This document shows, in pieces, positions 15,901 to 33,350 of a stretch of 64,000 bases of DNA. The stretch comes from Ereboglobus sp. (GTDB taxonomy: Bacteria; Verrucomicrobiota; Verrucomicrobiia; Opitutales; Opitutaceae), in assembly GCA_029974595.1 (NCBI GenBank), contig JARKRC010000011.1:1-64000 (forward strand). The letters run 5' to 3'. Under the pieces are notes generated by a model. It had not been told where the DNA came from. It did not search any database and saw nothing but the letters and a program-made list of their open reading frames with translations. Numbering within the stretch: the first letter of the stretch is position 1; every line of letters begins with the position of its first letter. The translations under genes and the position numbers were made by a program.

Positions 15901-17211
15901 ATGAAAATCCTGCGCCGCCCAGCCTGTATCATTTTTTGCCTCGCGAGCCTTCTCTCCACCGTCTCCGCCGGGCCGATTCGCCCGCTGGCGAATGATTTTG
16001 TCGTAGTGGGCGAATCCGACGCCCCCCTGACCACGCCGCTCTATTCCCCGACCATCCTGCGGCTGGACTCGGGGCGCCTGGTCGCCGCCTATACAATATG
16101 GCACCCGGGCAAAAAACCGAGTTGCTCGGTCCTGCTCACGTCCGACGACGGCGGGCGCTCGTGGAAACAGCGTGCTGAACTGTCCAGTTCGCAGGGGCGC
16201 GTTTTCAAGGCGGGGCGGTCGCTATATTATCTGGCGACCGGCGCCGGCCTGCCCATTTCACGCTCCAATGACGACGGCGAGACATGGTCGGCCCCGGTGA
16301 ATATCACCGGGAAAGAGCTGGTCTGGCAGCAGACCCCGGCGAATGTCTGGCACGCGAAGGGCAATGTCTATATAGCCTACGAGATAAAGGGCCGGACTAT
16401 AAATGCCTGGGCAGCCTCCGAAAAGGCGCTCGTGCTCTTGCGCGCCCCGGAAAAATCAGACCTCACCAAACCGCAAAACTGGACCATCTCCAGCCGCCTG
16501 ACCTTTGCCGATGTGCTGCCGGGCGTGCGCGAAAACAACCCGCAGACAGATTATTTTGGGATCCCATTTTATCCACAGAGTTATCCCAACCGGCGGCCAA
16601 TCGCGCCGAGGCGCAGCTTTTCACCCATCGGCTGGGTCGAGCCGGGGGTCGTGCAAATCCTCGACCCCGATCATTACTGGTATGACCCGTCAGGCCGTAC
16701 CTTTCACATCATCGCCCGCGCCCACACTGGCGGCACGGGATTCGCGTGTCTGGCCAAGGTCGTGGAGAACGACGATGGCACCATGACCATGTCGTTGCAG
16801 GACGCTCCCTCGGGCAAGCGCATGCTCTTCCTGCCCGTGCCCGGCGGGCAGATGCGTTTCCATATTCTCTACGACGCCAAGACCAAACTCTACTGGCTGC
16901 TCGGCACACAGGCCACCGATTCGATGCGCCGCGCCGACAGACTTCCGCCCGACCGCTTCGATCTCGCTTTCAACGAACGCCAGCGCCTGGTGCTGCACTT
17001 TTCAAAAAACCTCGTTGACTGGTGCTTCGCCGGACTGGTCGCCACCTCGGGCGAAAATGGAAAGACCTCGCGCCACTACGCCAGCATGGACATCGACGGC
17101 GACGATCTTGTCATTCTTTCCCGCAGTGGCGACGAACGCGCCAAGAGTGCCCACAACGGAAACATCATCACCTTCCACCGCGTGAAGAACTTCCGCGACC
17201 TTGTATATTGA
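15901..17211 (+). CDS. Secreted BNR/Asp-box protein, paralogue A (sialidase-like fold)
   Basis: A 436-residue secreted protein starting at ATG 15901, where a signal peptide begins (MKILRRPACIIFCLASLLST, cleavage near SAG). Two Asp-box motifs are visible: LTSDDGGRSW near residue 80 and SNDDGETW near 120. The C-terminal part (GQMRFHILYDAKTKLYWLLG to TFHRVKNFRDLVY) is shared with the proteins at 17238 and 28060. The fold is that of six-bladed sialidases. However, the region that should hold the FRIP arginine reads LYSPTILRLDSGRLVAAY, so true sialidase activity is doubtful. It may be a hydrolase of another glycan or a binding protein. The gene sits 26 bp before its paralogue. Confidence 0.85.
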   Translation: MKILRRPACIIFCLASLLSTVSAGPIRPLANDFVVVGESDAPLTTPLYSPTILRLDSGRLVAAYTIWHPGKKPSCSVLLTSDDGGRSWKQRAELSSSQGRVFKAGRSLYYLATGAGLPISRSNDDGETWSAPVNITGKELVWQQTPANVWHAKGNVYIAYEIKGRTINAWAASEKALVLLRAPEKSDLTKPQNWTISSRLTFADVLPGVRENNPQTDYFGIPFYPQSYPNRRPIAPRRSFSPIGWVEPGVVQILDPDHYWYDPSGRTFHIIARAHTGGTGFACLAKVVENDDGTMTMSLQDAPSGKRMLFLPVPGGQMRFHILYDAKTKLYWLLGTQATDSMRRADRLPPDRFDLAFNERQRLVLHFSKNLVDWCFAGLVATSGENGKTSRHYASMDIDGDDLVILSRSGDERAKSAHNGNIITFHRVKNFRDLVY

Positions 17212-17237
17212 ATAATATTAATAACTCTTGGAAAATC

Positions 17238-18611
17238 ATGAAACGACACCCACACCCACACCCACACCCACACCCACACCCACACCCACACCCACACCCA
17301 CTCATCACGGCATTCCTCGCTCTTTGTACATTTGCCACAACTGCCGCCGGGCAGCCCGGCGGCCCGATCCGTCCGCTGGCACAGGAACACGTCGTTGTCG
17401 CCGAGTCGCCCAACCCGCAAAAATTGCCGCTCTATAATCCCACCATCCTGCGCCTGCCATCCGGGCGGCTCGTGGCTGGATATTCACTCAGTAACAAGCA
17501 CGACAAGAAATACACCGAGGGCGTGGGCATGCACTTCCTCACATCCGACGACGGCGGCCTCACTTGGAAACATCGCGCACTGCGCCGCATCGGACAAGCC
17601 CGCCTGTTGCTCGCCGACGGTGTCGTGTATGCCCTCGGCTCGAGCAACCTGAGCATCATCCGCTCCGATGACGAAGGTGCCACATGGTCGGAACCGGTGC
17701 GGTTGGTGAAGGAGACCGGCTGGCACAACCACGCCGCGAATTTCATTCGTGCCAAAGGCAACATCTACCTTGTCATCGAGCGCGCCGTGAAGAAGGAAAT
17801 CAACGCATGGGTGCCCGGGGATCTTTCTCCCATCCTCATGCGCGCCCGCGAAAAATCCGATCTCACCAAGCCCAATAGCTGGACCTTCGCCAGCAGTCTC
17901 GCATTCAAGGACACCATTCCGGGCTACCGCGAAAACAAGCTGCAAATCGACGGGTTTGGCGTGCCGTTTTATCCGCAGAATTTTCCCACTCGCACCAACT
18001 TCCCCGGCACGAAAGCCAATAGCGCGCCCATCGGCTGGCTCGAGGCCAATGTCGCGCAGATCACCGATCCGGATCACTACTGGTTCGATCCGAAGGGCAG
18101 GACATTCCACATCCTCATGCGGGCGCACACCGGCGGCACCGGCTATGCCGCGCTCGCGAAGGTCGTGGAGAATAACGACGGCACCATGACCACGATGCTT
18201 GAGACCGCGCCATCCGGGAAGCTCATGCTTTTTCTGCCCATGCCCGGCGGTCAGATGCGTTTTCACATCACCTACGATGAAAAAACAAAACTCTACTGGT
18301 TGCTCAGCTCGCAATCCACCGACTCGATGACACGCGTCGAAAAACTCCCGCCCGATCGTTACAACCTTCCCAACAACGAACGCCACCGTCTCGTTCTTCA
18401 CTTCTCGAAAAACCTCGTTGACTGGTGCTTCGCCGGCGTGGTGGCAATCGGCGGCACACCCGGGCAAGCGCGCCACTACGCGGCGATGGACATCGACGGC
18501 GACGATCTCATCATCCTCTCCCGCAGCGGTGACGCCCGCGCAAGAAACGCCCACGACGGCAACATCATCACCTTTCACCGCGTCAAAAACTTCCGGGAAC
18601 TTGTGTATTAG
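17238..18611 (+). CDS. Secreted BNR/Asp-box protein, paralogue B, with a His-Pro repeat in its signal peptide
   Basis: A 457-residue protein. The ATG at 17238 is preferred because the longer frame overlaps the previous gene. The n-region is MKR followed by nine His-Pro pairs encoded by a perfect hexamer repeat. A hydrophobic core (LITAFLALCTFATTAAG) follows. Asp boxes are LTSDDGGLTW and IRSDDEGATW. It is closely similar to the proteins at 15901 and 28060 over the whole mature part, including the NGNIITFHRVKNF tail. As in paralogue A, no FRIP motif is seen; the equivalent segment is YNPTILRLPSGRLVAGY. It probably acts in the periplasm or outside the cell on the same glycan as its neighbours. 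An FG-GAP gene starts one base after its stop. Confidence 0.85.
   Translation: MKRHPHPHPHPHPHPHPHPHPLITAFLALCTFATTAAGQPGGPIRPLAQEHVVVAESPNPQKLPLYNPTILRLPSGRLVAGYSLSNKHDKKYTEGVGMHFLTSDDGGLTWKHRALRRIGQARLLLADGVVYALGSSNLSIIRSDDEGATWSEPVRLVKETGWHNHAANFIRAKGNIYLVIERAVKKEINAWVPGDLSPILMRAREKSDLTKPNSWTFASSLAFKDTIPGYRENKLQIDGFGVPFYPQNFPTRTNFPGTKANSAPIGWLEANVAQITDPDHYWFDPKGRTFHILMRAHTGGTGYAALAKVVENNDGTMTTMLETAPSGKLMLFLPMPGGQMRFHITYDEKTKLYWLLSSQSTDSMTRVEKLPPDRYNLPNNERHRLVLHFSKNLVDWCFAGVVAIGGTPGQARHYAAMDIDGDDLIILSRSGDARARNAHDGNIITFHRVKNFRELVY
17247..17300 (+). repeat. Hexanucleotide microsatellite, nine perfect CACCCA units
   Basis: Fifty-four bases of uninterrupted CACCCA, read as alternating His and Pro codons just after MKR of paralogue B. 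Because the unit is six bases, copy-number changes keep the frame and alter only the length of the signal-peptide n-region. Confidence 0.95.
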
Positions 18612-18612
18612 C

Positions 18613-19083
18613 ATGAAGCCGGAACACCACATCACCCCGACAACAATCTCGTGTCTGTCAACGAGTGTCGTCATGCTGGCTTGCTTGGGGATGTTCATAT
18701 GTATGAGCGCCGGGGCCACCGGGCGGCTGAAGCTGCTTCTCACCGATTGGGACGGCGACGGCGTGGTGGACTTGTTGATTGGCACGGGCTCGGGATCGTC
18801 CGTGCCGGGCAAGAACAACGGCTTGCCTCACGGTTGGTCCGGGCACGGACGCGGTGCGGCGGTGTTGTTCCTGAAAAATGTCGGCACCAATGAAAACCCC
18901 GTCATGGCCTACCCCGCGTTTATTTCGCACAAGGGCGCGCCGATTTTTCTCGGTCATCACGAAATCGGCGTCGCCGTCGGCGAAATCGCCGGCGAACCTT
19001 GCCTCATTGTCGGACGCGAGACAGGCCGCCTCTACTATTACAAAAAAAGCGAGCTTGGCCTGATCGAACATGCGCCAAGATAA
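18613..19083 (+). CDS. Short secreted FG-GAP/VCBS-repeat protein, possibly a truncated paralogue
   Basis: A 156-residue protein starting one base after the previous stop. A long signal sequence (STSVVMLACLGMFICMSAG) leads directly into a calcium-binding FG-GAP motif (LTDWDGDGVVDLLIG) and the segment FLKNVGTNENPVMAYPAF. The same pattern (DFDGDGKLDLVLG, then MKNIGTNEKPKYAPPF) occurs repeatedly in the 689-residue protein at 21130. The small protein therefore looks like a signal peptide joined to one or two repeat blades. It may be a decayed copy or a minimal binding module. The frame is intact and the position suggests co-transcription. Confidence 0.7.
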   Translation: MKPEHHITPTTISCLSTSVVMLACLGMFICMSAGATGRLKLLLTDWDGDGVVDLLIGTGSGSSVPGKNNGLPHGWSGHGRGAAVLFLKNVGTNENPVMAYPAFISHKGAPIFLGHHEIGVAVGEIAGEPCLIVGRETGRLYYYKKSELGLIEHAPR

Positions 19084-19124
19084 GACCGCCCCTCTCATTT
19101 TCACCCTTCCATCCTCACCAAACC

Positions 19125-21104
19125 ATGAAAACCACGTTCCTCTCCCTGCTCTCCGCCTTCTGTCTCCTGGCCTTTGCTCCCGCTGTCCTCCCGGCGGAAA
19201 CCCTCCTTAACGCCGGCTTCGAAAGAGGCTTGCCGCCAAATATCGACACCTACCGCCTTGACGCCTCCATCGACACTTCCCGCGCGCATTCCGGGCGCGC
19301 CTCCTTGCGTCTCGACAAAAAAACGAAGGATTCACACGGTACTTTCAGTTTCAATCTCGGCAGGCAGCTCGACTCCTCCTCCAATTGTGAATATTCCCTC
19401 TGGGTTTACACCGGGCCTGACACACAGGTCAGACTCTTTATCACGGCGGAGGACGATGCCGGCGAGCGGCTTACCGTCGCCAATACCACCGGCCAAATCA
19501 AGCCGGGCCAATGGAACCGGATAAGCGGCATGGTATACGCGGGAGACTGGCGTAAGGAGTTTCGCAATCCCAGGTTTGATGTCCGCGTCTACGGAGACTG
19601 CTGGATCGACGATGTTACAATGGTCTCCGGCCTGCCCGAGACACCCTCCCAGGTCTGGCCCAAGCTCAAGGATGCCCTCTACGCTGCAGCGGACAAACGC
19701 GCCTCCTCGCTCGCGCCCGGCGGCACTCTTGTGCTCGACGCCCGCAACGCCGCCCTCGCGCCCGACACCGCCCGTGCGGAAGCTACTCTGCCCGAAACCT
19801 CATCCACCATCATTCCCGCCCAAGGGATGCTCGTCTTCGCCATCGACGCCGGGGATGACCTCGCCCTTGCCGGATCTCTTCAGCTCGAACCCGATGCCGA
19901 CCTGCGTCCCGGCCTGCGCGTTACCGTGCTTTCCGGCGATACCGTGATCGGCGCCCCGGCGGTGAAAGCCGAGCCTTGGAAAACACCAGCCAGCTCTGTT
20001 CCTCCCGGCCCCGCTCCGGATATTCGCGGCGAACGTCCGCCCGTCTCCGTTCCGCTCGCCAACTGGCGCATGACCAAGGGACGTCATTACATCGCCATCG
20101 CCGGCCCACACAACCGCCCCGGCGGCTCCTTTGCGCAACTCGAATTGCGGGCCAAGGAACGTCCCGCCGCCGCACCCCTCTACGCTTTCGCGCTGTTTGC
20201 CGACACACACATCGGTGTTGGGCGCGGTTTTGGCAGCTCCCCGTGGCAAAAAACCAGGCTCTTCAGCCGCACCGCCGGGGAAATGGAGGATGCGATCCGC
20301 CAGCTCAAGCGCGAGAACGCAACCTTCGCCATCATCGCTGGCGACTTGACCGCCAATGGGTACCGCAAGGAACTCCAAGACCTCGCCGATGTTGTCAAGC
20401 GCGCCAACTTTCCGGTTTATGCCTGCCTCGGCAATCATGACACCGTCCACCGCGGCTCGCGTGCCAGCATTGCGGCCTTGATTCCTGATCTCTTTCCCTC
20501 CGGCCCTCAGGACACTGACTATGTTTTCACCCGTCCGCCACTGCGCTTCATCGTGCTGGATGGCGCCTACTGGCGCGGCAAAAGTGGCCCTATCCATGGC
20601 CACAGGCCCGTTAAAACTGCCCAGAACACCTACCGCGACGGCATGATCGACTGGTTGCGCGAAACCCTCGCCAAGGACACCGTCTCGCCCACCATTGTCA
20701 TTTCCCATTTTCAGTTCTACCGCCAGCGCGGGGTGTCGGATGCAAGCGGTTACGACTTCGGCAAGGAACCTGCGCGAAACAAAGCCCTCATTGCCCTCCT
20801 CGCCGCCGCGCCCAATGTGGTGGCCGCAATGAGCGGACATCACCACTACAATGCGCTTTCCACCTATCGCGGCATCACCTGTCTCGAAACTCCGTCGCTC
20901 GTCGCGTGGCCCAATGCCTATCGAGTGTTCCGCGTTTATCCCGATCGCATGGAATGGGAAGTCCGCCAGATATCCAATCGCGGACTCATTCGCGAGGGCA
21001 TCATCCCGGAAATGGCGTTGCTGTGGGAACTCTCCACTGCCGAGGGCGACCTCTCCGGCTCCATAAACCTGTCTCCCATTCCTAAATTAATCTCTGAACG
21101 CTAA
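19125..21104 (+). CDS. Secreted calcineurin-like metallophosphoesterase with N-terminal carbohydrate-binding-like domain
   Basis: A 659-residue protein with ATG at 19125 and a signal peptide (FLSLLSAFCLLAFAPAVLPA). Residues about 25-170 resemble a jelly-roll carbohydrate-binding module (LNAGFERG start, CWIDDVTMVSG end). A middle region of unknown fold follows. The metallophosphoesterase domain occupies about 350-640, with metal-ligand motifs FADTHIG (Asp near 360), GDLTANGY, GNHD (near 436), ISHFQ and SGHHHYN (near 571). All the main ligands appear present, so it should be active on a phosphomonoester or diester. In this locus it may remove phosphate from a decorated glycan, which is inference from context. 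Confidence 0.85.
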   Translation: MKTTFLSLLSAFCLLAFAPAVLPAETLLNAGFERGLPPNIDTYRLDASIDTSRAHSGRASLRLDKKTKDSHGTFSFNLGRQLDSSSNCEYSLWVYTGPDTQVRLFITAEDDAGERLTVANTTGQIKPGQWNRISGMVYAGDWRKEFRNPRFDVRVYGDCWIDDVTMVSGLPETPSQVWPKLKDALYAAADKRASSLAPGGTLVLDARNAALAPDTARAEATLPETSSTIIPAQGMLVFAIDAGDDLALAGSLQLEPDADLRPGLRVTVLSGDTVIGAPAVKAEPWKTPASSVPPGPAPDIRGERPPVSVPLANWRMTKGRHYIAIAGPHNRPGGSFAQLELRAKERPAAAPLYAFALFADTHIGVGRGFGSSPWQKTRLFSRTAGEMEDAIRQLKRENATFAIIAGDLTANGYRKELQDLADVVKRANFPVYACLGNHDTVHRGSRASIAALIPDLFPSGPQDTDYVFTRPPLRFIVLDGAYWRGKSGPIHGHRPVKTAQNTYRDGMIDWLRETLAKDTVSPTIVISHFQFYRQRGVSDASGYDFGKEPARNKALIALLAAAPNVVAAMSGHHHYNALSTYRGITCLETPSLVAWPNAYRVFRVYPDRMEWEVRQISNRGLIREGIIPEMALLWELSTAEGDLSGSINLSPIPKLISER

Positions 21105-21129
21105 ACACGCGCCCTTTCACGCCAAAACC

Positions 21130-23199
21130 ATGAAAATGTATAATAAAATATCGTCGCCTTTGTCCTGCGTCGCCATGCTGCTCTGCCTGGGGGTGCTTGC
21201 TGGTGGAATAACATGCGCCCAGCCGGCGAAACTGCCCGAGCGCCTCATGCTTATCGACCACAATAATCCCGGATTGACCGCGGACCTCGGCGTCGGTCTC
21301 TGGGGATGGCCGGTTGTCCACGATGCCAACAACGACGGCCGCCCCGATTTGTATGTTGTCGCTGGCTCGTCGCCTTACAAAGGCACGTATTATTTTGAAA
21401 ACACCGGGCGCAAAGACCCGAAAACAGGAATGCCGGTTTTTAAGAAAGCGGTGTTTGTCGGGCCTGGAAGCAACGACATCACGCCCTCGAACACGCCCGC
21501 GGGGCTTCGTGTGACGGGCGGCGGTTTCGAATACCCCGATTTTCTGAAATCGGGCGTGAATACCGAGGCGCGCAAAAAACTGCCGTTCACTGCAAAAACG
21601 GTGCACAAAACATCGGGCCGCATTCGCGGCGAGCAGTGGAGCTATGTCGATTTCGACGGGGACGGCAAACTGGATCTCGTGCTCGGCGTCGGCGATTGGA
21701 GCGATTACGGTTGGGACAACGCCTTTGATGCCAACGGCCGCTGGACAAATGGACCGCTGCACGGGTTTGTCTATATAATGAAGAACATAGGCACCAACGA
21801 AAAACCCAAATATGCACCTCCGTTTCGTCTTCGCGCCGATAATCGCGACGTTGATGTCTATGGCATGCCGTCGCCTGTTTTCGGCGATTTCCGCGGAACC
21901 GGCAAGCTGGACCTGATTTGCGGCGAATTTGTGGACGGCTTCACCTTTTTCGAAAATATCGGCACTCGGGAAAAACCCGAATACGCGGCGGGAAAACGCC
22001 TCACGTTCAAAGGCGCTCCGATCACGATGCCGCTGGAAATGATTGTCGTCACGGCGTACGACTGGAACAAAACCGGGCGTCTCGACCTGATTGTCGCGCA
22101 GGAGGACGGGCGCGTGGCATGGCTCGAAAACACGGGCAATATAATCAAGACAACCCAGAGCTCCGGCCCCCGTGAAACGCTTGAGCGCAACATGCCGGAA
22201 TTCGCGCCTCCGCGTTTTTTCCGCCAGGAGGCCGATCACGTGAAATTCGGCGTGCTGACGACACCGGCCGCGGTCGATTGGGATGGTGACGGCTTGATTG
22301 ACATCGTCACCGGCAACGCGGCAGGAGAGCTCGCGTTTATTAAAAATCTGGGTGGAAACCCTGTCAAATGGGCCGAGCCGGAATTGCTCGCGGCGAACGG
22401 CGCGCCGATACGGATCATGGCCGGCTACAACGGTTCCATACAAGGACCGGCTGAAAGCAAGTGGGGCTATACCAATATACATGTGGCCGACTGGGACGGC
22501 GACGGCCTGCCCGACATCATGATAAATACAATCATAGGAAAAATACTATGGAGCAAAAACATCGGCACGCGCACGGCGCCGAAACTCGCCCCGCCGGAAC
22601 CCGTGCGCGCGTTGTGGAACGGCCCGGCTCCGAAACCCGCGTGGAATTGGTGGAACCCCGAGGCCGACGAGCTGGTTCTCCAGTGGCGCTGCACGGCTTA
22701 CATGATCGATATTGATGGCGATGGTATTCCCGACCTGGTCGCCCCGGATCACGAGGGATATCTGGCCTTCTTCAAACATGTGGTTCGCGACGGAAAACAT
22801 TATGTTCTTCCCGGCAAAAGGATTTTCAAGATGAAGGGTCATTCGGAGTTCGACTCCCGCGGCGTGGCGCGCTCCGACGGGCCCCGGGGCGGCGAATTGC
22901 GCATGAATTACGGCGAGGCCGGGCGCAGCGGGCGGAGGACGTTTCATTTCACGGATTGGGACGGCGATGGGAAACTGGATCTGCTCGTCAACAGCGTTAA
23001 TATCAATTTTTATAAAAACGTGTCCACGAAGCCGGGCGAATGGATTTTTCAAGACATGGGCCCCGTGGACGGTAAAAAACTTGCCGGGCACAGCACATCG
23101 CCCACGACCGCAGACTGGGATGGCGACGGCGTGGAGGAACTGCTCGTCGGCGCGGAGGACGGCTTCTTTTACCTGCTCAAAAATCCCCGCGCGAAATAA
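21130..23199 (+). CDS. Secreted FG-GAP/VCBS-repeat protein
   Basis: A 689-residue protein with an N-terminal signal sequence (VAMLLCLGVLAGGITCAQ). At least six integrin-type calcium-binding motifs are visible, including HDANNDGRPDLYV, DFDGDGKLDLVLG, DWDGDGLIDIVTG, DWDGDGLPDIMIN, DIDGDGIPDLVAP and DWDGDGKLDLLVN. These mark an FG-GAP beta-propeller. Such proteins bind ligands outside the cell or scaffold other secreted enzymes; no catalytic residues are recognisable. It lies between the metallophosphoesterase and the lyase, and shares its repeat type with the short protein at 18613. No function can be given beyond probable calcium-dependent binding. Confidence 0.82.
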   Translation: MKMYNKISSPLSCVAMLLCLGVLAGGITCAQPAKLPERLMLIDHNNPGLTADLGVGLWGWPVVHDANNDGRPDLYVVAGSSPYKGTYYFENTGRKDPKTGMPVFKKAVFVGPGSNDITPSNTPAGLRVTGGGFEYPDFLKSGVNTEARKKLPFTAKTVHKTSGRIRGEQWSYVDFDGDGKLDLVLGVGDWSDYGWDNAFDANGRWTNGPLHGFVYIMKNIGTNEKPKYAPPFRLRADNRDVDVYGMPSPVFGDFRGTGKLDLICGEFVDGFTFFENIGTREKPEYAAGKRLTFKGAPITMPLEMIVVTAYDWNKTGRLDLIVAQEDGRVAWLENTGNIIKTTQSSGPRETLERNMPEFAPPRFFRQEADHVKFGVLTTPAAVDWDGDGLIDIVTGNAAGELAFIKNLGGNPVKWAEPELLAANGAPIRIMAGYNGSIQGPAESKWGYTNIHVADWDGDGLPDIMINTIIGKILWSKNIGTRTAPKLAPPEPVRALWNGPAPKPAWNWWNPEADELVLQWRCTAYMIDIDGDGIPDLVAPDHEGYLAFFKHVVRDGKHYVLPGKRIFKMKGHSEFDSRGVARSDGPRGGELRMNYGEAGRSGRRTFHFTDWDGDGKLDLLVNSVNINFYKNVSTKPGEWIFQDMGPVDGKKLAGHSTSPTTADWDGDGVEELLVGAEDGFFYLLKNPRAK

Positions 23200-23230: not shown

Positions 23231-24169
23231 ATGATTCCAAGTGTTCCAAAAAAAGGAATTCTCGCGGCCTTGTGGCTGCCTTCCGACTCGAATGGCAATT
23301 TGCTCAAACGCGAGCTTGCCGCCAACATTGCTTGGCTGAAATCGAAGGGCATCCACGGCGTGCTGGCCCTCGGTAGCACCGGCGAGTTTCCGCAAATGAG
23401 CATCGATCAGCGCAAGGATGCGCTGGCGACGGTTGCGGAGCTGGCGGCCCCGCTGCCGGTCATCGCCAATATAAGCGACATACGCCCGCGGGCTGTCGCG
23501 GAGCTGGGCCGCTTTGCGCGCGAATTGCGCCTGCCCGCGGTCGCCATCATGGCGCCGGGGTTTTACCCGGGCGCACAGGATGACATTCTCGAGCATTTTT
23601 TGCATGCGGCGGATTGTTCCCAGCTGCCCGTGTTTTTATATAATTTCCCGGAGCTGACCGGCGCCCGCATCAATCTGGAAACCGTGGCGGCTTTCGCCGA
23701 CCGGGCCAACATGGCCGGAATCAAGCAAAGCGGCGGCGAATTCGCATATCATAAGGATCTGATCAAGCTGGGACGTGAAAAGGACTTCGTTGTCTTTTCC
23801 GGCGCCGACACCCGTTTGCCTGAGGTGTTCGGGCTCGGTGCAGTTGGCTGCATCGGCGGCCTGGTCAATATCGTTCCCGAATACATGTTGCATTTGTATA
23901 ATGTATGCCGGGAGGGTATTCCGGGTGAAACGAGTCCTGCATTCGAACGGGTGAAACTTGCGGGAGGCATCGTGGACAGGCTGACATTTCCCTTGAATGT
24001 CGCCGCCGGCATGGCGGCGCGCGGCGCGGCTGTGGGCGTTCCCAAGGCGCTTGTATCAGCGAAGTCCTGGGAAATCTACAACGGTATTGTTAGGGATCTG
24101 GGCGCGGCGTTCGCGGAGTGGGGACTCGAACGCCTCGACGCGGTTCCCGCAGAGACAACAAGAGTATGA
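23231..24169 (+). CDS. nanA: N-acetylneuraminate lyase / dihydrodipicolinate synthase family aldolase
   Basis: A 312-residue class I aldolase from ATG 23231; the longer upstream frame overlaps the FG-GAP gene. Family signatures are GSTGE (48-52), the catalytic tyrosine in FLYNFP (Tyr137) and the Schiff-base lysine in GIKQSGG (Lys165). Both positions coincide with those I recall for the E. coli lyase. There is no signal peptide, so it works in the cytoplasm, splitting a 2-keto-3-deoxy acid into pyruvate and an aldehyde sugar. The neighbours make sialic acid or a related keto-deoxy acid plausible, but subfamily members with other substrates cannot be excluded, so the symbol is tentative. Its stop overlaps the next start (ATGA), indicating coupled translation. 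Confidence 0.78.
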   Translation: MIPSVPKKGILAALWLPSDSNGNLLKRELAANIAWLKSKGIHGVLALGSTGEFPQMSIDQRKDALATVAELAAPLPVIANISDIRPRAVAELGRFARELRLPAVAIMAPGFYPGAQDDILEHFLHAADCSQLPVFLYNFPELTGARINLETVAAFADRANMAGIKQSGGEFAYHKDLIKLGREKDFVVFSGADTRLPEVFGLGAVGCIGGLVNIVPEYMLHLYNVCREGIPGETSPAFERVKLAGGIVDRLTFPLNVAAGMAARGAAVGVPKALVSAKSWEIYNGIVRDLGAAFAEWGLERLDAVPAETTRV

Positions 24170-25317
24170 ACACAATCGACAATATGATAAAAAACACAAC
24201 GAACAACGTCTCTCGTGCGAGCATGACGTCAAATAAAGCCGGCACAATCGTGCTTCTGATGGCGCTGGCATTGGGTTTGATGCTCCCGTTGGAAGCGGAT
24301 ACCGCTCATCCGCATCCATCAATACTGCACGCAACCTTTATAAATCAAAATGCGAGTTATCCAGAGAGCCATGCGTCCACGATTGTGGAGGTTTCGCCCG
24401 GACATCTCGTGTCGGCGTGGTTTGGCGGCACAAAGGAGAAAAATCCCGACGTGTGCATCTGGGTGTCGCATTTTGAAAACGGAAAATGGACGAATGCAGT
24501 CAATGTCGCCAACGGCATCCAGGAGGGCGGAAAGCGTTTTCCGACATGGAACCCGGTGCTCTTTCAGCCGCCGCAGCCCGGGGCTCCGTTGATTCTGTTC
24601 TATAAAGCCGGTCCTTCCGCAGCGTCATGGTGGGGCATGATGATCACTTCGAAAGACGGCGGCCGCACATGGAGCAAGCCCGTCCGGTTGCCTGAGGGCG
24701 TTTACGGGCCGGTCAAAAACAAGCCCGTTGTCCTGTCCGACGGCACGTGGCTTTCTGCATCGAGCACCGAGCACGGCAAGGAGGGCTGGCGTGTGCATTT
24801 TGAATATTCGCAAGACCAGGGAAAAACATGGACGGTCGTGAAGCCCGGCAAAGGCGCGGTGTCTTTTGATGCGATCCAGCCCAGCGTTCTCTTCCATAAG
24901 GCGGACAATCCGAACGGAGGCCTCCAGGCGTTGTGCCGCACGAAGCAGGGCGTCGTGGCGATGACATGGTCGAAGGACAACGGGAAAACGTGGAGCGCGC
25001 CTGTGGCGACCGAATTGCCGAATCCCAACTCCGGCACGGACGCCCTCACGCTCTCCGACGGGCGGCAGCTTATCGTATATAATCCCACGGCCCACAATCC
25101 CGGTAGTCCGGGCAAGGGGAGCCGTTATCCGCTTTCGGTGGCGCTTTCAAATGACGGGCTTTCGTGGAATCGCATTCTGGATCTGGACACGGAACCCTGC
25201 CGCTCCGGCTACTCCTATCCCGCCGTGATCCAGACATCCGACGGCCTCGTGCATGTGACCTACACCTACAACAGAAAGTGCATAAAGCATGTCGTGATCG
25301 ATCCGAAGAAATTGTGA
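24166..25317 (+). CDS. Secreted sialidase-family (BNR_2-like) protein
   Basis: A 383-residue protein whose ATG overlaps the aldolase stop by four bases. A long n-region precedes a hydrophobic segment (TIVLLMALALGLMLPLEA), so an inner start at MTSNK is also possible. Asp boxes include SKDGGRTW, SQDQGKTW and SKDNGKTW. The N-terminal mature part (ESHASTIVEVSPGHLVSAWF) and WNPVLF segment are characteristic of a BNR subgroup annotated as sialidase or neuraminidase-like. Histidine stands where canonical sialidases carry the FRIP arginine, so the substrate is open. It is a different subgroup from the three A/B/C paralogues. It probably acts in the periplasm, releasing sugars for the cytoplasmic lyase. 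Confidence 0.82.
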   Translation: MNTIDNMIKNTTNNVSRASMTSNKAGTIVLLMALALGLMLPLEADTAHPHPSILHATFINQNASYPESHASTIVEVSPGHLVSAWFGGTKEKNPDVCIWVSHFENGKWTNAVNVANGIQEGGKRFPTWNPVLFQPPQPGAPLILFYKAGPSAASWWGMMITSKDGGRTWSKPVRLPEGVYGPVKNKPVVLSDGTWLSASSTEHGKEGWRVHFEYSQDQGKTWTVVKPGKGAVSFDAIQPSVLFHKADNPNGGLQALCRTKQGVVAMTWSKDNGKTWSAPVATELPNPNSGTDALTLSDGRQLIVYNPTAHNPGSPGKGSRYPLSVALSNDGLSWNRILDLDTEPCRSGYSYPAVIQTSDGLVHVTYTYNRKCIKHVVIDPKKL

Positions 25318-25341: not shown

Positions 25342-26601
25342 ATGATTAAAACAAACCTCAAGATGCCCTGTTTTATAATAAAAAAACAATTTTGTGCATT
25401 TTTAGTCATATTGATTTGCAGCGAGCCTTTTTTACCCGCTCCCGTGTCTGGCGCGGGCGTCCGGCCCGTCCCTGCTTTTGAGATCAGCGGTTATCATGTG
25501 CCCGTGATCGACCTTTCCCTCGATCAGGGGCGCATCGTTTCGGTGGATCGCGAGAACGGGCAGTATCTCGGGCACCCCACGACGGTGCTGCTGCCGGACG
25601 GAAAAACGATATACGCCATTTATCCGAAAGGTCATGCTGTCGGCGCGCTGGTTTTGAAGCGCAGCGATGACGGTGGCCTGACGTGGAGCGACCGCCTGCC
25701 TGTTCCCGAGAATTGGAAGACGTCGAAAAACCCGCCGAGCATCCACCGGCTGGAAGGCCCGGATGGGAAGTCCCGGCTAATTGTGCTCACCGGTTCGGCG
25801 GAAAATAAAAAGGAGGATCTTCCCGTGCGGATGTCCGTATCCGAGGACGATGGCAGGACATGGACCCCGCTTGCGCCCATCGGCGAAGGCGCGGAATATA
25901 ATGCCATTGTTGCGGCTTCGTGCATGTTGCGTTTGAAGGACGGCCGCTACATGGCGTTGCATCATTCGGATTATCTTTCGGGCCCCGAAGGCAGGCGCAA
26001 TATGAAGCTCTACAAAATGCTCTCCTCGGACGGCGGCCTGAGCTGGAGCAAGAGGCAATTTGTTGCCGATCATCCCGTGGCCGAGTTTTGCGAGCCCGGC
26101 GCGATCCGGTCTCCGGATGGCAGCCAGATCGCGGTTTTGATACGGGATAACAGCCGGTTCCGGCGCGGTGTTTCCGAATCCTATATTATATTCTCAAACG
26201 ATGAAGGCGAAACATGGACGCCCGCGCGGGCCTTGCCGCCTGTTCTCGCCGGAGACAAGCATGTGGCCAAATATGCGCCGGACGGGAGGCTCGTGATTGT
26301 TTTCAGGGACATGGATTTCGCAAGCCCGACACGCGGGCATTTCATGGCATGGATCGGAACGTATGAGGACCTGGCCAAAAACGGAAACGGGCAATATCGC
26401 GTCAAGCTCCTGAATAATTTTGAGGGCGTCGACTGCGGTTATGCCGGGCTGGAACTCCTCCCCGACGGAACGTTCGTGGCGGTCACTTATGTTCGCGATG
26501 TTCTTTATGTGCGGGACGGCAAACGATCCGCAAAGCATTCGATCGTGAGCGTGCGTTTCCGGCTGGATGAGCTGGATCAGCTTGTTGCGAAAAGGAGATA
26601 A
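25342..26601 (+). CDS. Secreted exo-sialidase-like BNR protein
   Basis: A 419-residue protein with a signal sequence (FCAFLVILICSEPFLPAPVSG). Asp boxes are RSDDGGLTW, SEDDGRTW, SSDGGLSW and SNDEGETW, four in all, as expected for a six-bladed propeller. The segment GQYLGHPTTVLLPDGKTIYA replaces the canonical FRIP region with GHPT. Other conserved patches are EFCEPGAIRSPDG and DCGYAGLELLPDGTF. This subgroup is usually labelled exo-alpha-sialidase, but the missing arginine leaves the activity unproven. It lies 24 bp after the previous BNR gene and its 3' end carries the ribosome-binding site of the next gene. Confidence 0.82.
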   Translation: MIKTNLKMPCFIIKKQFCAFLVILICSEPFLPAPVSGAGVRPVPAFEISGYHVPVIDLSLDQGRIVSVDRENGQYLGHPTTVLLPDGKTIYAIYPKGHAVGALVLKRSDDGGLTWSDRLPVPENWKTSKNPPSIHRLEGPDGKSRLIVLTGSAENKKEDLPVRMSVSEDDGRTWTPLAPIGEGAEYNAIVAASCMLRLKDGRYMALHHSDYLSGPEGRRNMKLYKMLSSDGGLSWSKRQFVADHPVAEFCEPGAIRSPDGSQIAVLIRDNSRFRRGVSESYIIFSNDEGETWTPARALPPVLAGDKHVAKYAPDGRLVIVFRDMDFASPTRGHFMAWIGTYEDLAKNGNGQYRVKLLNNFEGVDCGYAGLELLPDGTFVAVTYVRDVLYVRDGKRSAKHSIVSVRFRLDELDQLVAKRR

Positions 26602-26603
26602 GA

Positions 26604-28037
26604 ATGCGCGGACGAATCCCAACATTTCGCGAATTCGCGGGGACGCTTGCGCGGACCCTGATTGCCGGTTTGTGCGTTGCCTGCGCCGTGCGCGCGCAGG
26701 CGGGCGGCGAGCGCCAGCTCACATTTGATTCGTGGAATCACGATCTGGATAATAATGACAATTTCTCGCCCGACGACCAATGGATATTATACGATCATCG
26801 CGATGATGCGCTCGGCGTCGCGGCAACGGCGTCCATATCAAAAGTAAATATTGTGACCGGGAGGACGGAAGTTGTCTATGCGCACGCGGACAACCGGCGG
26901 TGGGGGCCGGGCGTGGCCGCGGCGAGTTTCAATCCGCGCGACGGCAGCGTGGTTGTGATGAGCGGCTTGGATGATGCGACGGAAACCCGTCCCTACGAAC
27001 TGTGGCGGCGCACATGCGCGCTCGTGAAGGACAGCCGCACGCTGGCGAGGCTGGATGCGCGCGACGTCACCGCGCCGTTCACTCCGGGCGCATTACGCGG
27101 CGGCTCGCACCGGCCCGAATGGAGCGCGGACGGGGAGTGGATTGGCTTTACCTATGATGACGAGGTGCTCGTGGAAAGCGGACGGCGCGCGGGAAAAACG
27201 ATCAGTCTTCGCACGGTTGGCGTGGCCTCCTATCACGGCGGCCCGGTGCGAGTGAATGCTGCGGAGGGCAATGCCAGCGGGCTCATGTTTTCCGTCGTCG
27301 TGGTCAGGGTGACGCCAAATCCGAAGCCCGGTTCGGATGAAATTAAAAAGGCGTTTGAGGACTCATGGGTGGGGCGCAATGGCTATCGCCACCCCGACGG
27401 CCACTGGCAAACACGCGCCCGCGCGTTTCTCGGGACGCTGGTCGATCGGGATGGTCGCGAGTTTACCGAGGTGTTTGTCGTGGATATTCCCGATCGCCTG
27501 AACAAGCCCGCAGCCGGCGAATATCTTGAGGGCACGCTTGAGACCATGCCGTCGCCCCCCGAAGGCACAAGGCAGCGGCGGCTCACGTTTACCGGTGATC
27601 GCAAACATCCGGGCGTTTCGCTCCTGCCCCGCCATTGGCTGCGCTCGTCGCCGGATGGATCGGAGATTGCATACCTCGCCAAGGATGATGCCGGAGTCAT
27701 ACAGGTTTTTCTTGTCAGTCCTGAAACGGGCCGGACGCGCCAGATAACCGAGCATCGCTCGTCGATACAAAGCTGCGTGCGCTGGAGTCCCGACGGACGC
27801 CATCTCCTTTATGTGTGCGATAACTCGGTGATGATTTGCGATACCGCTCCGGATGTGCCGTGGGAAAAACGCGCGCGCGCGCTCACCGCGCCGACCGCCC
27901 GGCCTCCTGAATCGCCCGTGTGGTCGAATGATGGCAGGCTCATTGCATTCAACCGCCGTGTCGCGGGACGGGGCGGATCGTGGAAACAGATTTTTTTAAT
28001 AAATGGAATCCATCATGCGGCGGAAAAACGGCCATAA
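26604..28037 (+). CDS. yidR: YidR-family protein (DUF3748, TolB-like propeller)
   Basis: A 477-residue protein. The start at 26604 is backed by AAGGAG at 26592-26597, inside the end of the previous gene. It has a signal sequence (LIAGLCVACAVRAQA) that I do not recall in E. coli YidR. Signature blocks match YidR closely from memory: NFSPDDQWILYDHR, DVTAPFTPGALRGGSH, GFTYDDEV, VTPNPKPGSDEI, SWVGRNGY and QRRLTFTGDRKHPGV. WSPDGRH and SSPDGSEIAY segments are PD40-type propeller blades. The role of YidR is not firmly known. Its presence in a catabolic cluster between BNR genes suggests it senses or processes the same glycan. Confidence 0.85.
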   Translation: MRGRIPTFREFAGTLARTLIAGLCVACAVRAQAGGERQLTFDSWNHDLDNNDNFSPDDQWILYDHRDDALGVAATASISKVNIVTGRTEVVYAHADNRRWGPGVAAASFNPRDGSVVVMSGLDDATETRPYELWRRTCALVKDSRTLARLDARDVTAPFTPGALRGGSHRPEWSADGEWIGFTYDDEVLVESGRRAGKTISLRTVGVASYHGGPVRVNAAEGNASGLMFSVVVVRVTPNPKPGSDEIKKAFEDSWVGRNGYRHPDGHWQTRARAFLGTLVDRDGREFTEVFVVDIPDRLNKPAAGEYLEGTLETMPSPPEGTRQRRLTFTGDRKHPGVSLLPRHWLRSSPDGSEIAYLAKDDAGVIQVFLVSPETGRTRQITEHRSSIQSCVRWSPDGRHLLYVCDNSVMICDTAPDVPWEKRARALTAPTARPPESPVWSNDGRLIAFNRRVAGRGGSWKQIFLINGIHHAAEKRP

Positions 28038-28059
28038 AACACCATCCTGGAATTGATAC

Positions 28060-29385
28060 ATGAAACCATATCATATAATTTCAATAGTCACCGCGTTCCT
28101 GACATTATGCGCATCCGCCCCCGCTGCGGCGTCCGGCGGTCCGGTGCGTCCGCTTGCGCAGGATTATGTCGTTGTGGGCGAGTCCCCCGCGCCCCGGACG
28201 ATACCTTTGTATAATCCGACGATTGTCCGCCTCGATTCGGGCCGTCTTGTGGCCGGCTATTTGCAGAGCAGCAAAACCGACAAGAAAACACCCGGCGCGG
28301 GCATGCACATCCTCACCTCCGACGACGGCGGGCGCACTTGGCATGAACGCGCCATCGTCCCGCGCATCGGACAGGCGCGTTTGATTCTCGCCGGCGGCAG
28401 GATTTACATGATCGGCTCCGGGAGCACGATGCGCATCATCCGTTCCGACGACGGCGGCGCGACGTGGACGAAGCCCGCCGACATCGCAAAGGGCCCGTGG
28501 CACCAAACCGCCTCCAATTTCATCCGCGCCAAGGGGAATGTCTATCTCGCCATTGAAAAGCGCATCGGCAGCGAAATCAAGGCATGGTCGCCGGGCGAGC
28601 TCGCGCCGATACTCATGCGCGCAAAAGAGACCGATGATCTCACGAAAAGAGCGAGCTGGACGTTCTCCAGCGAGCTTCCCTTCAAGGAGCTGATTTCCGG
28701 GTATCGGGCCAACAATCCCGAAATGGATTATTTCGGCGTGCCGTTTTTTCCGTCCGCTTTTCCGAGTCGTTACACCACCGCGCCGAGGCGGGATTCGGCA
28801 CCCATCGGCTGGCTCGAAGCGAATGTCGCGCAGATCACCGATCCCGATCATTACTGGTTCGATCCCGCCGGAAAAACATTTCACATCCTCATGCGCGCGC
28901 ACACCGGCGGGACCGGTTACGGCGCGCTGGCAAAAGTCGTGGAGCGCGACGACGGCACGATGCAGACGATGCTCGAAACCGTTCCCTCCGGAAAGAAGAT
29001 GCTCTTCCTTCCGCTGCCCGGTGGACAGATGCGTTTTCATATAACCTATGATGAAAAAACAAAACTCCACTGGCTGCTCGGCTCGCAGGCGACCGACTCG
29101 ATGACGCGTTCCGAAAAACTGCCCGCCGACCGCTACAATCTGCCCAACAACGAACGGCACCGCCTCGTGCTGCATTTCTCAAAAAATCTCGTCGATTGGT
29201 GTTTTGCCGGACTTGTCACCACCGGCGATTCGCCCGGCCAGGCGCGGCATTACGCATCGATGGATATTGACGGCGACGATCTGGTCATTCTCTCACGCAG
29301 CGGCGACGAGCGGGCCAAGAGCGCGCACGACGGCAATCTCATCACCTTTCACCGCGTGAAAAACTTCCGCGATCTCGTTTACTAA
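28060..29385 (+). CDS. Secreted BNR/Asp-box protein, paralogue C
   Basis: A 441-residue protein with signal peptide (IVTAFLTLCASAPAAASG). It is collinear and very similar to the proteins at 15901 and especially 17238 (for example NPTIVRLDSGRLVAGY, AQITDPDHYWFDPAGKTFHI, QMRFHITYDEKTKLHWLLGS and the HRVKNFRDLVY tail). Asp boxes are LTSDDGGRTW and IRSDDGGATW. As in the other two, no FRIP arginine is visible. Keeping three copies about 12 kb apart suggests dosage or specialised substrates. It lies 22 bp after the yidR-like gene and 14 bp before the esterase, in the same transcription unit. Confidence 0.85.
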   Translation: MKPYHIISIVTAFLTLCASAPAAASGGPVRPLAQDYVVVGESPAPRTIPLYNPTIVRLDSGRLVAGYLQSSKTDKKTPGAGMHILTSDDGGRTWHERAIVPRIGQARLILAGGRIYMIGSGSTMRIIRSDDGGATWTKPADIAKGPWHQTASNFIRAKGNVYLAIEKRIGSEIKAWSPGELAPILMRAKETDDLTKRASWTFSSELPFKELISGYRANNPEMDYFGVPFFPSAFPSRYTTAPRRDSAPIGWLEANVAQITDPDHYWFDPAGKTFHILMRAHTGGTGYGALAKVVERDDGTMQTMLETVPSGKKMLFLPLPGGQMRFHITYDEKTKLHWLLGSQATDSMTRSEKLPADRYNLPNNERHRLVLHFSKNLVDWCFAGLVTTGDSPGQARHYASMDIDGDDLVILSRSGDERAKSAHDGNLITFHRVKNFRDLVY

Positions 29386-29399
29386 AGACTCCTCAAACA

Positions 29400-30341
29400 A
29401 TGAATGCACAATCACGGTTTCTCCCGGCATTTCTCCTTGTGATTTTCACATTGGGCGCGTCCGTCCTTTCAGCGCAGACGACGGATGAGTTCCCGCTCCG
29501 TCCGGGAGCACGCTATGAAAAAACCGCGCAGCCTTTGCAGGAGGAGCTGGTTTTTCGCACCAATGCCCCCGATGACCACGGTCTCAACCGCATGTATAAG
29601 AACACGGTTTTTCCGACGGTGACCGTGTATCGTCCCGCGCCGGGAAAAGGCAACGGCACGGCGATTGTCGTTTGTCCGGGGGGCGGGTATTCGAGTGTCG
29701 TCATCGATCGCGAGGGGCACTGGATCGCCCGCTATTTTCGCGAGCTCGGATTCACGATTGTCGTTTTGAAATACCGTTTGCCGAAACCCGAAACCACCGG
29801 CGACGGCATGCCGCTCAGCCAGCAGGATGCGCTGGATGCCATTCGTTACGCGCGCGCCCATGCTGCTGAATGGGGCGTCCGCGCGGATCGCATCGGCATC
29901 ATGGGCTCCTCGGCGGGAGGGCATCTCGCGGGCAGCGCGGGGATTCTCGGCAGGGCGGAGGATGGCTCGAGGCCCGATTTTGTGGCGTTGCTTTATCCGG
30001 TGGTTACGATGGATCCCGCTTTCACGCATCGTGGCTCGCGCGACCGCCTGCTCGGGCAGAATCCGGCGAAGGAGCGCGTCGATTTCTTTTCACTCGAAAA
30101 ACAGGCGCGCGCCGGTTTGCCGCCGTTCTTCATCACACACGCGAGCGACGACAAAACCGTGCCGATTGAAAACAGCACTCGGCTCATCGCCGCGCTGGAA
30201 AAGGCCGGCGTGCCGGCGAAGCTCGTCAGCTACAAAACGGGCGGCCACGGCTATTCGCTCGGCCGCACGCCCGGGCATGAAACCGCAGGATGGAAGGCCG
30301 AGTTTCTCACATGGCTCGGCGGACTAGAAAAAACCCGCTGA
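29400..30341 (+). CDS. Secreted alpha/beta hydrolase, carbohydrate-esterase-like
   Basis: A 313-residue protein with a signal peptide ([16 protein letters not shown]). The fold is recognised from the oxyanion motif CPGGGYS (102-108), the nucleophile elbow GSSAGG (Ser171), the acid in HASDDKTVP (Asp250 or 251) and the histidine in GGHGYSLG (His283). This is the BD-FAE/acetylxylan-esterase-like group, whose members remove acetyl or feruloyl groups from sugars. In this locus a deacetylating role on the imported glycan is likely, for example on O-acetylated sialic acid or xylose, but the acyl group is unknown. The ATG at 29400 follows the previous stop by 14 bp. Confidence 0.85.
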
Positions 30342-30405
30342 ATCGGGCGGCTTTTCTGTGCAGACACCGCTTCAATTTCAATCACGCATACTAACTGAAA
30401 CTGAC

Positions 30406-32112
30406 ATGAAATATTACCTCGGCATCGATGTCGGCACGGGCAGCGCCCGGGCCGGGATTTTTGATGAAAACGGGCGCATGGCCGCCTCGGCCAGCAGGCG
30501 CATAAAAATGTGGAAACCCGCGCCCGACCACGTCGAGCAATCCGGCGATGACATCTGGCGCGCCTGCTGCGCGGCGACGCGCGCGGCCCTGCAAAAGGCG
30601 GGCCTCGCCGCCGGCGCGATTTGCGGCGTTGGTTTCGACGCGACGTGCTCGCTCGTCGCCGTCGATGTGGAGGGCAAACCCGTTTCGCTGAGCACCACGG
30701 GCCGCGATGAGCAAAACGTGATTGTATGGATGGATCACCGCGCCATCGCCGAGGCGGGGCGCATCAATGCCACGAAGCATCCGGTGCTGCGCTATGTCGG
30801 CGGTGTGATTTCGCCCGAGATGCAGACGCCGAAGCTGCTCTGGCTGAAACAAAACCTGCCCGCCGCGTGGAAGCGTGCCGCGCGTTTTTTTGACCTGCCG
30901 GATTTTCTCACCTGGCGCGCGACCGGCGATGACACGCGCTCGCTGTGCTCCGTCGTGTGCAAATGGACTTATCTCGGACACAAGGGTCCCGACGGCGCGG
31001 GCTGGGATCGCGGTTACTTTGAAAAAATCGGACTCGGCGATCTGGCGGCGGACGGCTTTGCGCGTATCGGCGCGCGGATTCGTCCGATGGGCGAGGCGAT
31101 TGGCGCGGGGCTTACGCAGAAGGCGGCGCGCGAGCTGGGATTGCGCGCGGGCACGCCGGTCGGCGTTTCCATAATCGACGCGCACGCGGGCGGCATCGGC
31201 ATGCTCGGCGCAAAAATCGGGAAGGAAAAAATCACGCCCGCGCTGCTCAACCGCCGTCTCGCGCTGATCGGCGGCACATCGACGTGCCACATGGCCGTCT
31301 CGCGCGATCCGCGTTTTATTCGCGGCATCTGGGGGCCGTATCATTCGGCGATGATTCCCGGATTGTGGCTCACCGAGGGCGGCCAGTCGGCGGTGGGGGC
31401 GCTGATCGACCATGTTGTTTTCACGCACGCGGCGTTTCCCGCCTTGAAAAAGGAGGCGGCGAAATCGGGCCGCTCGATTTATGATGTGCTCAACGACCGG
31501 CTGGATGCGCTCGCGAAAGCCGAAGGCGTCGCGCACGCCGCCGAGCTTACGGGGGATTTGCACGTGCAGCCCGATTTTCATGGCAACCGCTCGCCGCGCG
31601 CGAATCCGACGCTGCGCGGCGCGATCTCCGGTCTCGCGCTCTCCGCGACCGCCGACGACCTCGCGCGGCTCTACCTCGCCACGATACAGGCGCTCGCCCA
31701 CGGCACGCGGCACATCATCGAGGAAATGAATCGCAAAGGTTATCACATCGACTCGCTCTTCGCGTGCGGCGGCGGCACGAAAAACCGCGTTTTTATGCGC
31801 GAGCACGCAAACATCACCGGCTGCCGGCTGGTGCTTCCGCGCGAGCCGGAGGCGGTGCTTCTCGGCGCGGCGGTGCTTGGCGCCACGGCGGCGCGCGGCG
31901 ATGGCGACGTGTCCGCCACGATGGGCCGGATGAACGCCGCCGATGCCATCATCGCGCCCGAGGGCGGCGCGGTGGCGCGTTATCACGATGCCAAATACAA
32001 GGTGTTTCAACGCATGCACGTCGATTTCCTTGCCTATCGCGCGCTGATGCAAAAAGTCGGCTCCCGCTCCCGCAAAACCCACTCCATAAAACAAACAAAA
32101 CGTCTCCCGTGA
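30406..32112 (+). CDS. FGGY-family carbohydrate kinase, D-ribulokinase type
   Basis: A 568-residue cytoplasmic kinase from ATG 30406, which places the first ATP-binding strand ([16 protein letters not shown]) at the N-terminus; the upstream ATG at 30358 would add 16 unrelated residues. Signature segments [27 protein letters not shown] and the late FACGGGTKN correspond to the FGGY subgroup with human FGGY and yeast YDR109C. That subgroup phosphorylates D-ribulose or similar ketopentoses. It should therefore act on a ketose or polyol made in this pathway. A NanK-type ROK kinase, usual for sialic acid, is absent, which argues for another or a second sugar. Its TGA overlaps the transporter start (GTGA). 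Confidence 0.87.
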
Positions 32113-33350
32113 ATACCACATCGAATACCCAGTCAGTGATCCGTTACGCGTGGATTTTGCTCGCGCTGCTCGCGCCGGTCGCGCTTCTCAATTACATGGA
32201 CCGCCAGATGCTCGCGGCCATGAAATATTCGCTGATGCACGACATCACCGGCCTCGATACCGAGGCGAAATGGGGGTTGCTGCCGGCGGTGTTCAAATGG
32301 ACTTACGCGTTTCTCAGCCCGCTCGGCGGCTACATCGCGGACCGGTTCAGCAAAAAGCACGTCATCACGCTGAGCCTGTTTGTCTGGTCGGCGGTCACGT
32401 GGGCGACCGGCCATGCGGAGACGTTTGAACAGCTCATGTGGAGCCGCGGCATCATGGGAATCAGCGAGGCGTTTTATATTCCGGCGGCGCTCGCGCTGAT
32501 CGCGGATTATCACACGGGGCCGACGCGCTCGCGCGCCGTGGGCATTCACCAGATGGCGATCTATATCGGCGTCATGATCGGCGGGTTCAGCGGCTATGTG
32601 GCGGATGCGCCTTCGCTCGGCTGGCGCTTCGCGTTCGACGCGGCGGGAATCGTCGGCGTGATCTATGCGATTCCGCTTTTCTTCCTGCTGAAAAACGCGC
32701 CCCGCAACGAAGGCGTCGCGCAGGCCGACAAACCTTCCGCCGGACATGCGTTCGTCGAACTCGTGACCAACAAATATTTCATAATGATGGTGCTTTATTT
32801 CACGCTGCCCGCGCTCGCCGGCTGGGTCATCAAGGACTGGATGCCCGCGATTTTGAAGCAGCAGTTTGACATCGGACAGGGCAAGGCGGGCGTGTCCGCC
32901 GCGCTTTTTGTGAACATCGCCTCGCTGATCGGCGCGGTTGTCGGCGGCATCATGGCCGACCGCTGGATGCGGCGCACGGATCGCGGGCGCATTTATGTGA
33001 GCGCGATTGGCATGTGCTGCATCATTCCCGCGCTTTTCGGCGTGGGCAACGCGGGCGCGCTGGTCGTGGCGATTGGGTTCCTGATGTTGTTCGGCATCGG
33101 CTGGGGCTTTTTCGACACGAACAACATGCCCATCCTCTGCCAGATCGTGCGGCCCGAGCTGCGCGCGACGGGCTACGGCATCATGAATCTGGTGAGCATC
33201 AGTTGCGGCGGTTTTGCCGACTGGGGCTTTGGCGCGATGCGCGACCACGGCGTGCCGATCAATCTAATCTTCACCGCATTCGCCTCGGTGTGCGTCCTGT
33301 CGGCTGCGATTGTGCTGCTCATCAAACCGAACAAAAAACTGGTCAAGTAA
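32109..33350 (+). CDS. MFS sugar or sugar-acid transporter
   Basis: A 413-residue integral membrane protein with about 12 hydrophobic segments. The GTG at 32109 is chosen because it overlaps the kinase stop and begins just before the first membrane helix ([20 protein letters not shown]). Motifs [25 protein letters not shown] (loop 2-3, the MFS GxxxDRxGRR-like signature) and ESRG-like [17 protein letters not shown] place it in the anion:cation symporter-like branch that includes hexuronate transporters. It is the last plus-strand gene of the locus and probably carries the released sugar or acid across the inner membrane. Confidence 0.88.

Follow-up and report, generated by a model that had tools for sequence, protein, structure and literature searches.

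Which acidic sugar is served by an operon that sets five BNR (bacterial neuraminidase repeat) proteins beside a NanA-like lyase and a pentulokinase? The operon lies in a 64,000-nucleotide stretch of an Ereboglobus sp. genome (GenBank assembly GCA_029974595.1, contig JARKRC010000011.1, positions 1 to 64,000), referred to here as the window. A sequence-only reading had described the five BNR proteins, including three close paralogues, as grouped with the lyase, an esterase, a phosphoesterase, a YidR-family protein, the kinase and a carrier of the major facilitator superfamily (MFS). All of these genes are present on the plus strand, and the block is part of a larger unit at 1702–33350 that is likely to be one transcription unit. 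We consider the evidence evenly balanced on whether this operon is a polysaccharide utilisation system for a 3-deoxy-2-ulosonic acid, most likely 3-deoxy-D-manno-octulosonic acid (Kdo) from the rhamnogalacturonan II (RG-II) side chain of plant pectin. Kdo is a constituent of RG-II in land plants and of the lipopolysaccharide of most Gram-negative bacteria, and the genes for its breakdown are poorly assigned. Overall, our analyses confirmed the earlier observation, and they supported its interpretation in part and made it more specific.

Fold and arginine site of the BNR proteins

The two BNR proteins that were modelled with AlphaFold2 are clearly predicted to be six-bladed sialidase propellers. 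The first, called ESHAST after the segment that it carries in place of the sialidase FRIP motif, gave a model with a predicted local distance difference test score (pLDDT) of 83 and a predicted template modelling score (pTM) of 0.87, which matched human Neu2 with a Z of 36.2 at 2.2 Å over 312 residues. The model of BNR3 (pLDDT 94, pTM 0.92) matched the pneumococcal sialidase NanA with a Z of 32.0 at 3.5 Å over 324 residues, and sialidases stood at the top of its structural Z list.

The sequence-only reading had found no recognisable sialidase arginine motif and had proposed structure prediction as a means of looking for the arginine triad. The part of this claim that concerns the FRIP segment stands, as the FRIP arginine is replaced in 5/5 BNR proteins, by His69 in ESHAST, by Tyr in BNR1–3 and by Gly in the GHPTT protein. 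This assignment was made by spacing relative to the Micromonospora viridifaciens sialidase, for which we assumed the residue numbers, and from alignments that are loose in that region. The wider claim was too strong, because the sialidase fold is clear and two triad arginines and the tyrosine are conserved. With the register read from alignments and spacing, the arginines that are kept are R258 and R320 in ESHAST and R279 and R366 in BNR3. The tyrosine of the sialidase Tyr/Glu pair is also kept, and the alignments place Glu at its partner position in BNR1–3 (E253) and Gln in ESHAST. That glutamine, Q238, aligns with the glutamate located 16 residues before the second arginine in NanB and NanC, and a sister subgroup of the ESHAST-type sequences has Glu at this position.

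Among 20 ESHAST-type sequences R258, R320, Y351 and R370 are invariant, and among 64 homologues of BNR1–3 the same is true of E253, R366, R413 and H423, with Y398 conserved in 98% and R279 in 87%. Each set thus includes a conserved C-terminal arginine, R370 in ESHAST (19 residues past Y351) and R413 in BNR3 (15 residues past Y398), which, judging from the alignments, may complete the carboxylate site and stand in for the missing FRIP arginine. Homologues of BNR1 were found in 47 public loci, and a search for ESHAST relatives in viral contigs found none. The signal region of BNR2 contains 9.3 perfect copies of the 6-bp unit ACACCC (17246–17301), which encode a (His-Pro)n stretch, and in-frame changes in the length of this repeat are possible.

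Lyase, kinase and isomerase, and their linkage in relatives

In the lyase, the equivalents of the Schiff-base Lys165 and of Tyr137 of the N-acetylneuraminate lyase/dihydrodipicolinate synthase (NAL/DHDPS) superfamily are invariant. Its identity is 31% to YagE and 29% to the NanA lyase, and it scores 78 bits against the NCBIfam nanA model TIGR00683, under the cut-off of 382. It also has Thr and Gly at the positions of Glu192 and Ser208, the residues with which NanA contacts the tail of its substrate. The kinase is above the threshold of TIGR01315, the FGGY pentulose kinase model (673.8 bits, cut-off 408.7), and matches PDB entry 3gg4 with 702 bits. The MFS carrier, at 119.7 bits against TIGR00893 (cut-off 395), is 23% identical to DgoT.

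Statements on the whole source genome (4.07 Mb in 77 contigs, with about 30 PF13088 genes) come from family and protein searches. NanE, looked for genome-wide by PF04131, gave no match, in agreement with the sequence-only reading; the operon genes include neither NanK nor NagA nor NagB, and no search for these three was made elsewhere in the genome. The earlier view that this is not a standard nan operon and that its target may be a different keto-deoxy or acidic sugar is supported by the absence of NanE, by the replacement of NanA Glu192 and Ser208, and by the pentulokinase-type kinase with its FucI-like isomerase in relatives.

Co-occurrence was examined in 273 sampled genomes of the order, with lyase orthologues called at E ≤ 1e-60. 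The lyase was found in 18 genomes, the kinase in 29, the ESHAST protein in 42 and the isomerase in 87. ESHAST is present in 15/18 genomes with the lyase versus 27/255 others (15 seen, 2.8 expected, p = 3e-11), and the isomerase in 25/29 genomes with the kinase versus 62/244 others (25 seen, 9.2 expected, p = 2e-10). The lyase shares 14 genomes with the isomerase (p = 5e-5) and 6 with the kinase (p = 0.006).

Positional linkage is stronger evidence than these tests. The lyase and kinase genes are separated by no more than about 13 kb in 6/6 genomes having both, the ESHAST and lyase genes are at most 14 kb apart in 10 of the 15 genomes that carry the two, and at most 7 kb separates the kinase from the isomerase, whose homology to FucI is weak, in 11 of 25. 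The isomerase adjoins the kinase in two relatives. The fullest arrangement, in G252 (locus L094), is a single run of LacI, a TonB-receptor-sized open reading frame (ORF), sulfatase, FG-GAP protein, lyase, sodium:solute symporter (SSS) family transporter, ESHAST, YidR, kinase and isomerase. In G008 (L105, L132) the order is lyase, MFS carrier, TonB receptor, two BNR1–3 paralogues, YidR, kinase and isomerase, with the lyase, BNR paralogues, kinase and isomerase inside 17 kb. A minimal version with LacI, FG-GAP protein, lyase, ESHAST and SSS transporter is found in G003, of the same genus (L092). In G119 (L137, contig C415) the same functional set is rebuilt with divergent members, namely LacI, an SSS transporter, a divergent DHDPS-family protein (29%), a pentulokinase, three divergent BNR proteins and the isomerase. 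In G070 an RraA-like aldolase gene (PF03737; L093, 9821–10564) stands between the FG-GAP and lyase genes.

Candidate substrates

A pyruvate-yielding aldolase, a FucI-family isomerase and a D-ribulokinase together fit Kdo, since its aldol products are pyruvate and D-arabinose. Neuraminate lyases form Kdo from D-arabinose and pyruvate (PMC4016182), and in strains of E. coli the fucose locus carries an inserted D-ribulokinase gene that serves the use of D-arabinose (PMC12307932). No described Kdo catabolic operon was found in the open-licence literature. The analysis shows which genes are present, how they are linked and co-occur, and which folds and residues are conserved; from this we infer the substrate and every enzymatic step of the following route. 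Secreted sialidase-fold BNR proteins, above all ESHAST, would release a terminal ulosonic acid, which the MFS carrier would import. The lyase would then cleave the acid to pyruvate and an aldopentose, which for Kdo is D-arabinose, the FucI-like isomerase, encoded elsewhere in the source genome and beside the kinase in relatives, would convert D-arabinose into D-ribulose, and the FGGY kinase would yield D-ribulose 5-phosphate. The divergent LacI repressor would control the operon.

The setting of the ESHAST and lyase clusters is that of pectin. Genes of glycoside hydrolase (GH) family 78 are found in 6/23 lyase neighbourhoods and an apiosidase-like gene (PF13204) in 5/23, and the lyase or ESHAST clusters of relatives also hold GH28, GH43, GH95, GH88 and GH2. 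At L100, ESHAST is fused to a GH2 domain, and at three loci that have no lyase (L149, L151, L153) it stands beside GH78, GH43 and apiosidase-like genes. The source genome itself has an ESHAST paralogue with GH106, GH78, GH28, GH2 and a sulfatase-like gene (L130). Rhamnose is attached to Kdo in RG-II. The breakdown of RG-II is reported to require a GH33 Kdo hydrolase, GH78 and GH95 (PMC11214529).

Several observations weigh against Kdo. The lyase is nearer to the 2-keto-3-deoxygluconate (KDG) aldolase YagE than to NanA, and ESHAST carries Gln at the position of the catalytic Glu of sialidases. In the source genome the isomerase gene is unlinked to the operon, lying on contig C64 beside a sugar ATP-binding cassette transporter; it is weakly FucI-like (PF02952, 38 bits; BLAST E 0.05) and common (87/273 genomes). 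The kinase is present in just 6/18 lyase genomes, ESHAST occurs in 27 genomes that lack this lyase, and the p-values come from Fisher tests, which ignore shared ancestry. Pectin enzymes are no proof of Kdo, as rhamnogalacturonan I clusters have a similar look, and the annotation of YidR points to galacturonate. Lastly, a fourth BNR1–3 paralogue of the source genome (L129, G000 contig C71, 9689–12854) adjoins a KDG-type kinase, the 2-keto-3-deoxy-6-phosphogluconate aldolase Eda, a DgoT-like MFS carrier and LacI; because of these neighbours, the BNR1–3 group may serve uronate-derived acids.

Alternatively, the operon may handle uronate-derived keto-deoxy acids of the KDG type from ordinary pectin, with a KDG- or 2-keto-3-deoxygalactonate-type lyase, BNR proteins that cleave uronic-acid or neutral linkages, and a pentulokinase serving another pentose of that polymer. 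We regard this as unlikely. The affinities of the lyase to YagE and of the carrier to DgoT, the annotation of YidR in galacturonate catabolism, the neighbours of the fourth paralogue, and GH28 and GH78 in relatives agree with it, but the operon genes include no uronate isomerase, reductase or dehydratase, and the kinase and isomerase are left unexplained despite their linkage to the lyase.

Quite improbable, in our estimate, is that the BNR proteins are not ulosonidases but use this propeller fold to cleave or bind neutral sugars, as in GH93 arabinanases. The best Foldseek E-value of BNR3 is to a GH93-type arabinanase, and the universal loss of the FRIP arginine and the change of Glu to Gln in ESHAST are in keeping with such a role. 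Against it stand the retention of two triad arginines and Tyr in 20/20 ESHAST-type and most of the 64 BNR1–3-type sequences, the lead of sialidases by Z, and the repeated linkage to DHDPS-family aldolases. Use of a true sialic acid, N-acetylneuraminic acid (Neu5Ac) or Kdn, through divergent sialidases and a divergent NanA is very improbable: the fold (Z 36 and 32), the conserved NanA catalytic Lys and Tyr, and GH181, which shows that an active sialidase can lack one triad arginine, would allow it, but the absence of NanE disfavours Neu5Ac, both tail-contact residues are replaced, the pentulokinase would be unexplained, and the related clusters have pectin-type enzymes.

The Kdo reading has a bolder form, which we put forward tentatively. 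In this form, ESHAST and BNR1–3 would make up new families of glycosidases with the sialidase fold, a C-terminal arginine taking the place of that of FRIP, and the operon would be a complete Kdo route, giving a sequence to Kdo aldolase (EC 4.1.2.23), which was among the orphan activities in a 2007 survey (PMC1940265). If true, the operon supplies testable genes for Kdo hydrolysis, uptake, cleavage and pentose salvage, and the BNR proteins represent a second way, besides GH181, of rebuilding the sialidase carboxylate site.

Operon layout and comparison with known systems

The operon comprises 16 co-directional genes from TonB receptor to MFS carrier, with intergenic gaps of −4 to 68 bp (Table 1). 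The divergent LacI regulator is 63–71% identical to those beside lyase orthologues at L092, L093, L094 and L017.

Table 1. Genes of the operon and its divergent regulator, with positions in the window
Feature	Position	Strand	Evidence
LacI-family regulator, divergent from the operon	260–1309	−	PF00356/PF13377
TonB-dependent receptor (outer-membrane uptake)	1702–4788	+	PF00593/PF07715, TIGR01782
Autotransporter with PATR repeats	4843–10512	+	PF03797, PF12951
Second large autotransporter-like protein	10581–15851	+	ORF and start; resemblance read from sequence
BNR1, sialidase-fold, signal peptide	15901–17211	+	62% identity to BNR3
BNR2, sialidase-fold, (His-Pro)n in signal region	17238–18611	+	72% identity to BNR3
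Short VCBS-like protein (by eye)	18613–19083	+	FG-GAP-like motifs read from sequence; no match in Pfam search
Secreted calcineurin-like metallophosphoesterase	19125–21104	+	PF00149
FG-GAP/VCBS protein, 689 aa	21130–23199	+	PF13517, 113 bits
DHDPS-family lyase, proposed ulosonate (Kdo) aldolase	23231–24169	+	PF00701
ESHAST BNR, sialidase-fold, proposed ulosonidase paired with lyase	24166–25317	+	PF13088, 288 bits, all 277 positions
GHPTT BNR	25342–26601	+	PF13088, 65 bits; sialidase matches
YidR/TolB-like propeller (DUF3748)	26604–28037	+	PF12566, 93 bits; 37% identity to E. coli YidR
BNR3, sialidase-fold, signal peptide	28060–29385	+	AlphaFold2 model
Alpha/beta-hydrolase esterase, signal peptide	29400–30341	+	PF20434/PF07859
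FGGY pentulokinase, D-ribulokinase type	30406–32112	+	TIGR01315, 3gg4
MFS carrier, closest to sugar-acid (DgoT) group	32109–33350	+	PF07690

The FG-GAP protein, which the sequence-only reading had passed over, is conserved beside the lyase in relatives and had no match in a PDB sequence search. A link to toxins through a PF12256 (TcdB_toxin_midN) match was rejected, plain FG-GAP repeats being the stronger match. An ESHAST-type BNR and an FG-GAP protein are fused into a single protein in several relatives (L154, 7982–11005; L155, 8246–11287; L156, 5834–8893), which suggests a shared substrate. The idea that the substrate is phosphorylated was dropped, as the metallophosphoesterase has no homologue in any of the neighbourhoods examined in relatives. 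The evidence for acetylation is one esterase, rarely kept in relatives, whose best named match is the pectin acetylesterase PaeX (NF041902, 191 bits, under the cut-off of 550). Just downstream of the operon, past a minus-strand gene for a B12-binding radical S-adenosylmethionine protein (33375–34691), is a GH2 glycosidase gene (35800–38475). Farther on, the 14-bp unit GTGAAGTGTGAAAG and its near reverse complement are repeated in tandem at 41096–41122 and 41455–41481, giving two short arrays separated by about 330 bp.

Compared with known systems, the operon is a variant of kinds already described, sialidase-fold enzymes and carbohydrate-utilisation operons, to which the Kdo claim is added. 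Its BNR proteins share with GH33 sialidases the six-bladed propeller, the Asp boxes and, at matching positions, the Tyr and two of the three triad arginines, but differ in having His, Tyr or Gly for the FRIP arginine, Gln at the Glu position in ESHAST, and an extra conserved arginine 15–19 residues after the Tyr. In GH181, an active sialidase, two triad arginines are joined by Gln367 (PMC10067855), which lies 17 residues past the Tyr-equivalent Gln350. This verrucomicrobial enzyme (AmGH181, Amuc_1547) likewise has a sialidase fold, the two common arginines and a replacement of the third on the C-terminal side of the Tyr-equivalent; however, it has Gln at the replacement site, lacks the Tyr, keeps the Glu and carries a carbohydrate-binding-module-like domain, whereas the operon BNR proteins keep the Tyr and have Arg.

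At the level of whole systems, the E. coli nan operon also combines a lyase, an MFS carrier and a dedicated regulator, but the present operon lacks NanE and NanK, has a pentulokinase instead, and includes a TonB receptor and many secreted proteins. The Bacteroides RG-II loci reportedly need a Kdo hydrolase together with GH78 and GH95, and similar families occur in the clusters of relatives; in the present genome, however, the rhamnosidases sit in paralogous clusters rather than in the operon, which has no SusD-type gene among its members. The D-arabinose route of E. coli (FucI and the D-ribulokinase DarK) follows the same logic of isomerase plus D-ribulokinase, but differs from the present case in that here there is linkage to an aldolase and to secreted proteins of the sialidase fold, and the isomerase resembles FucI only distantly.

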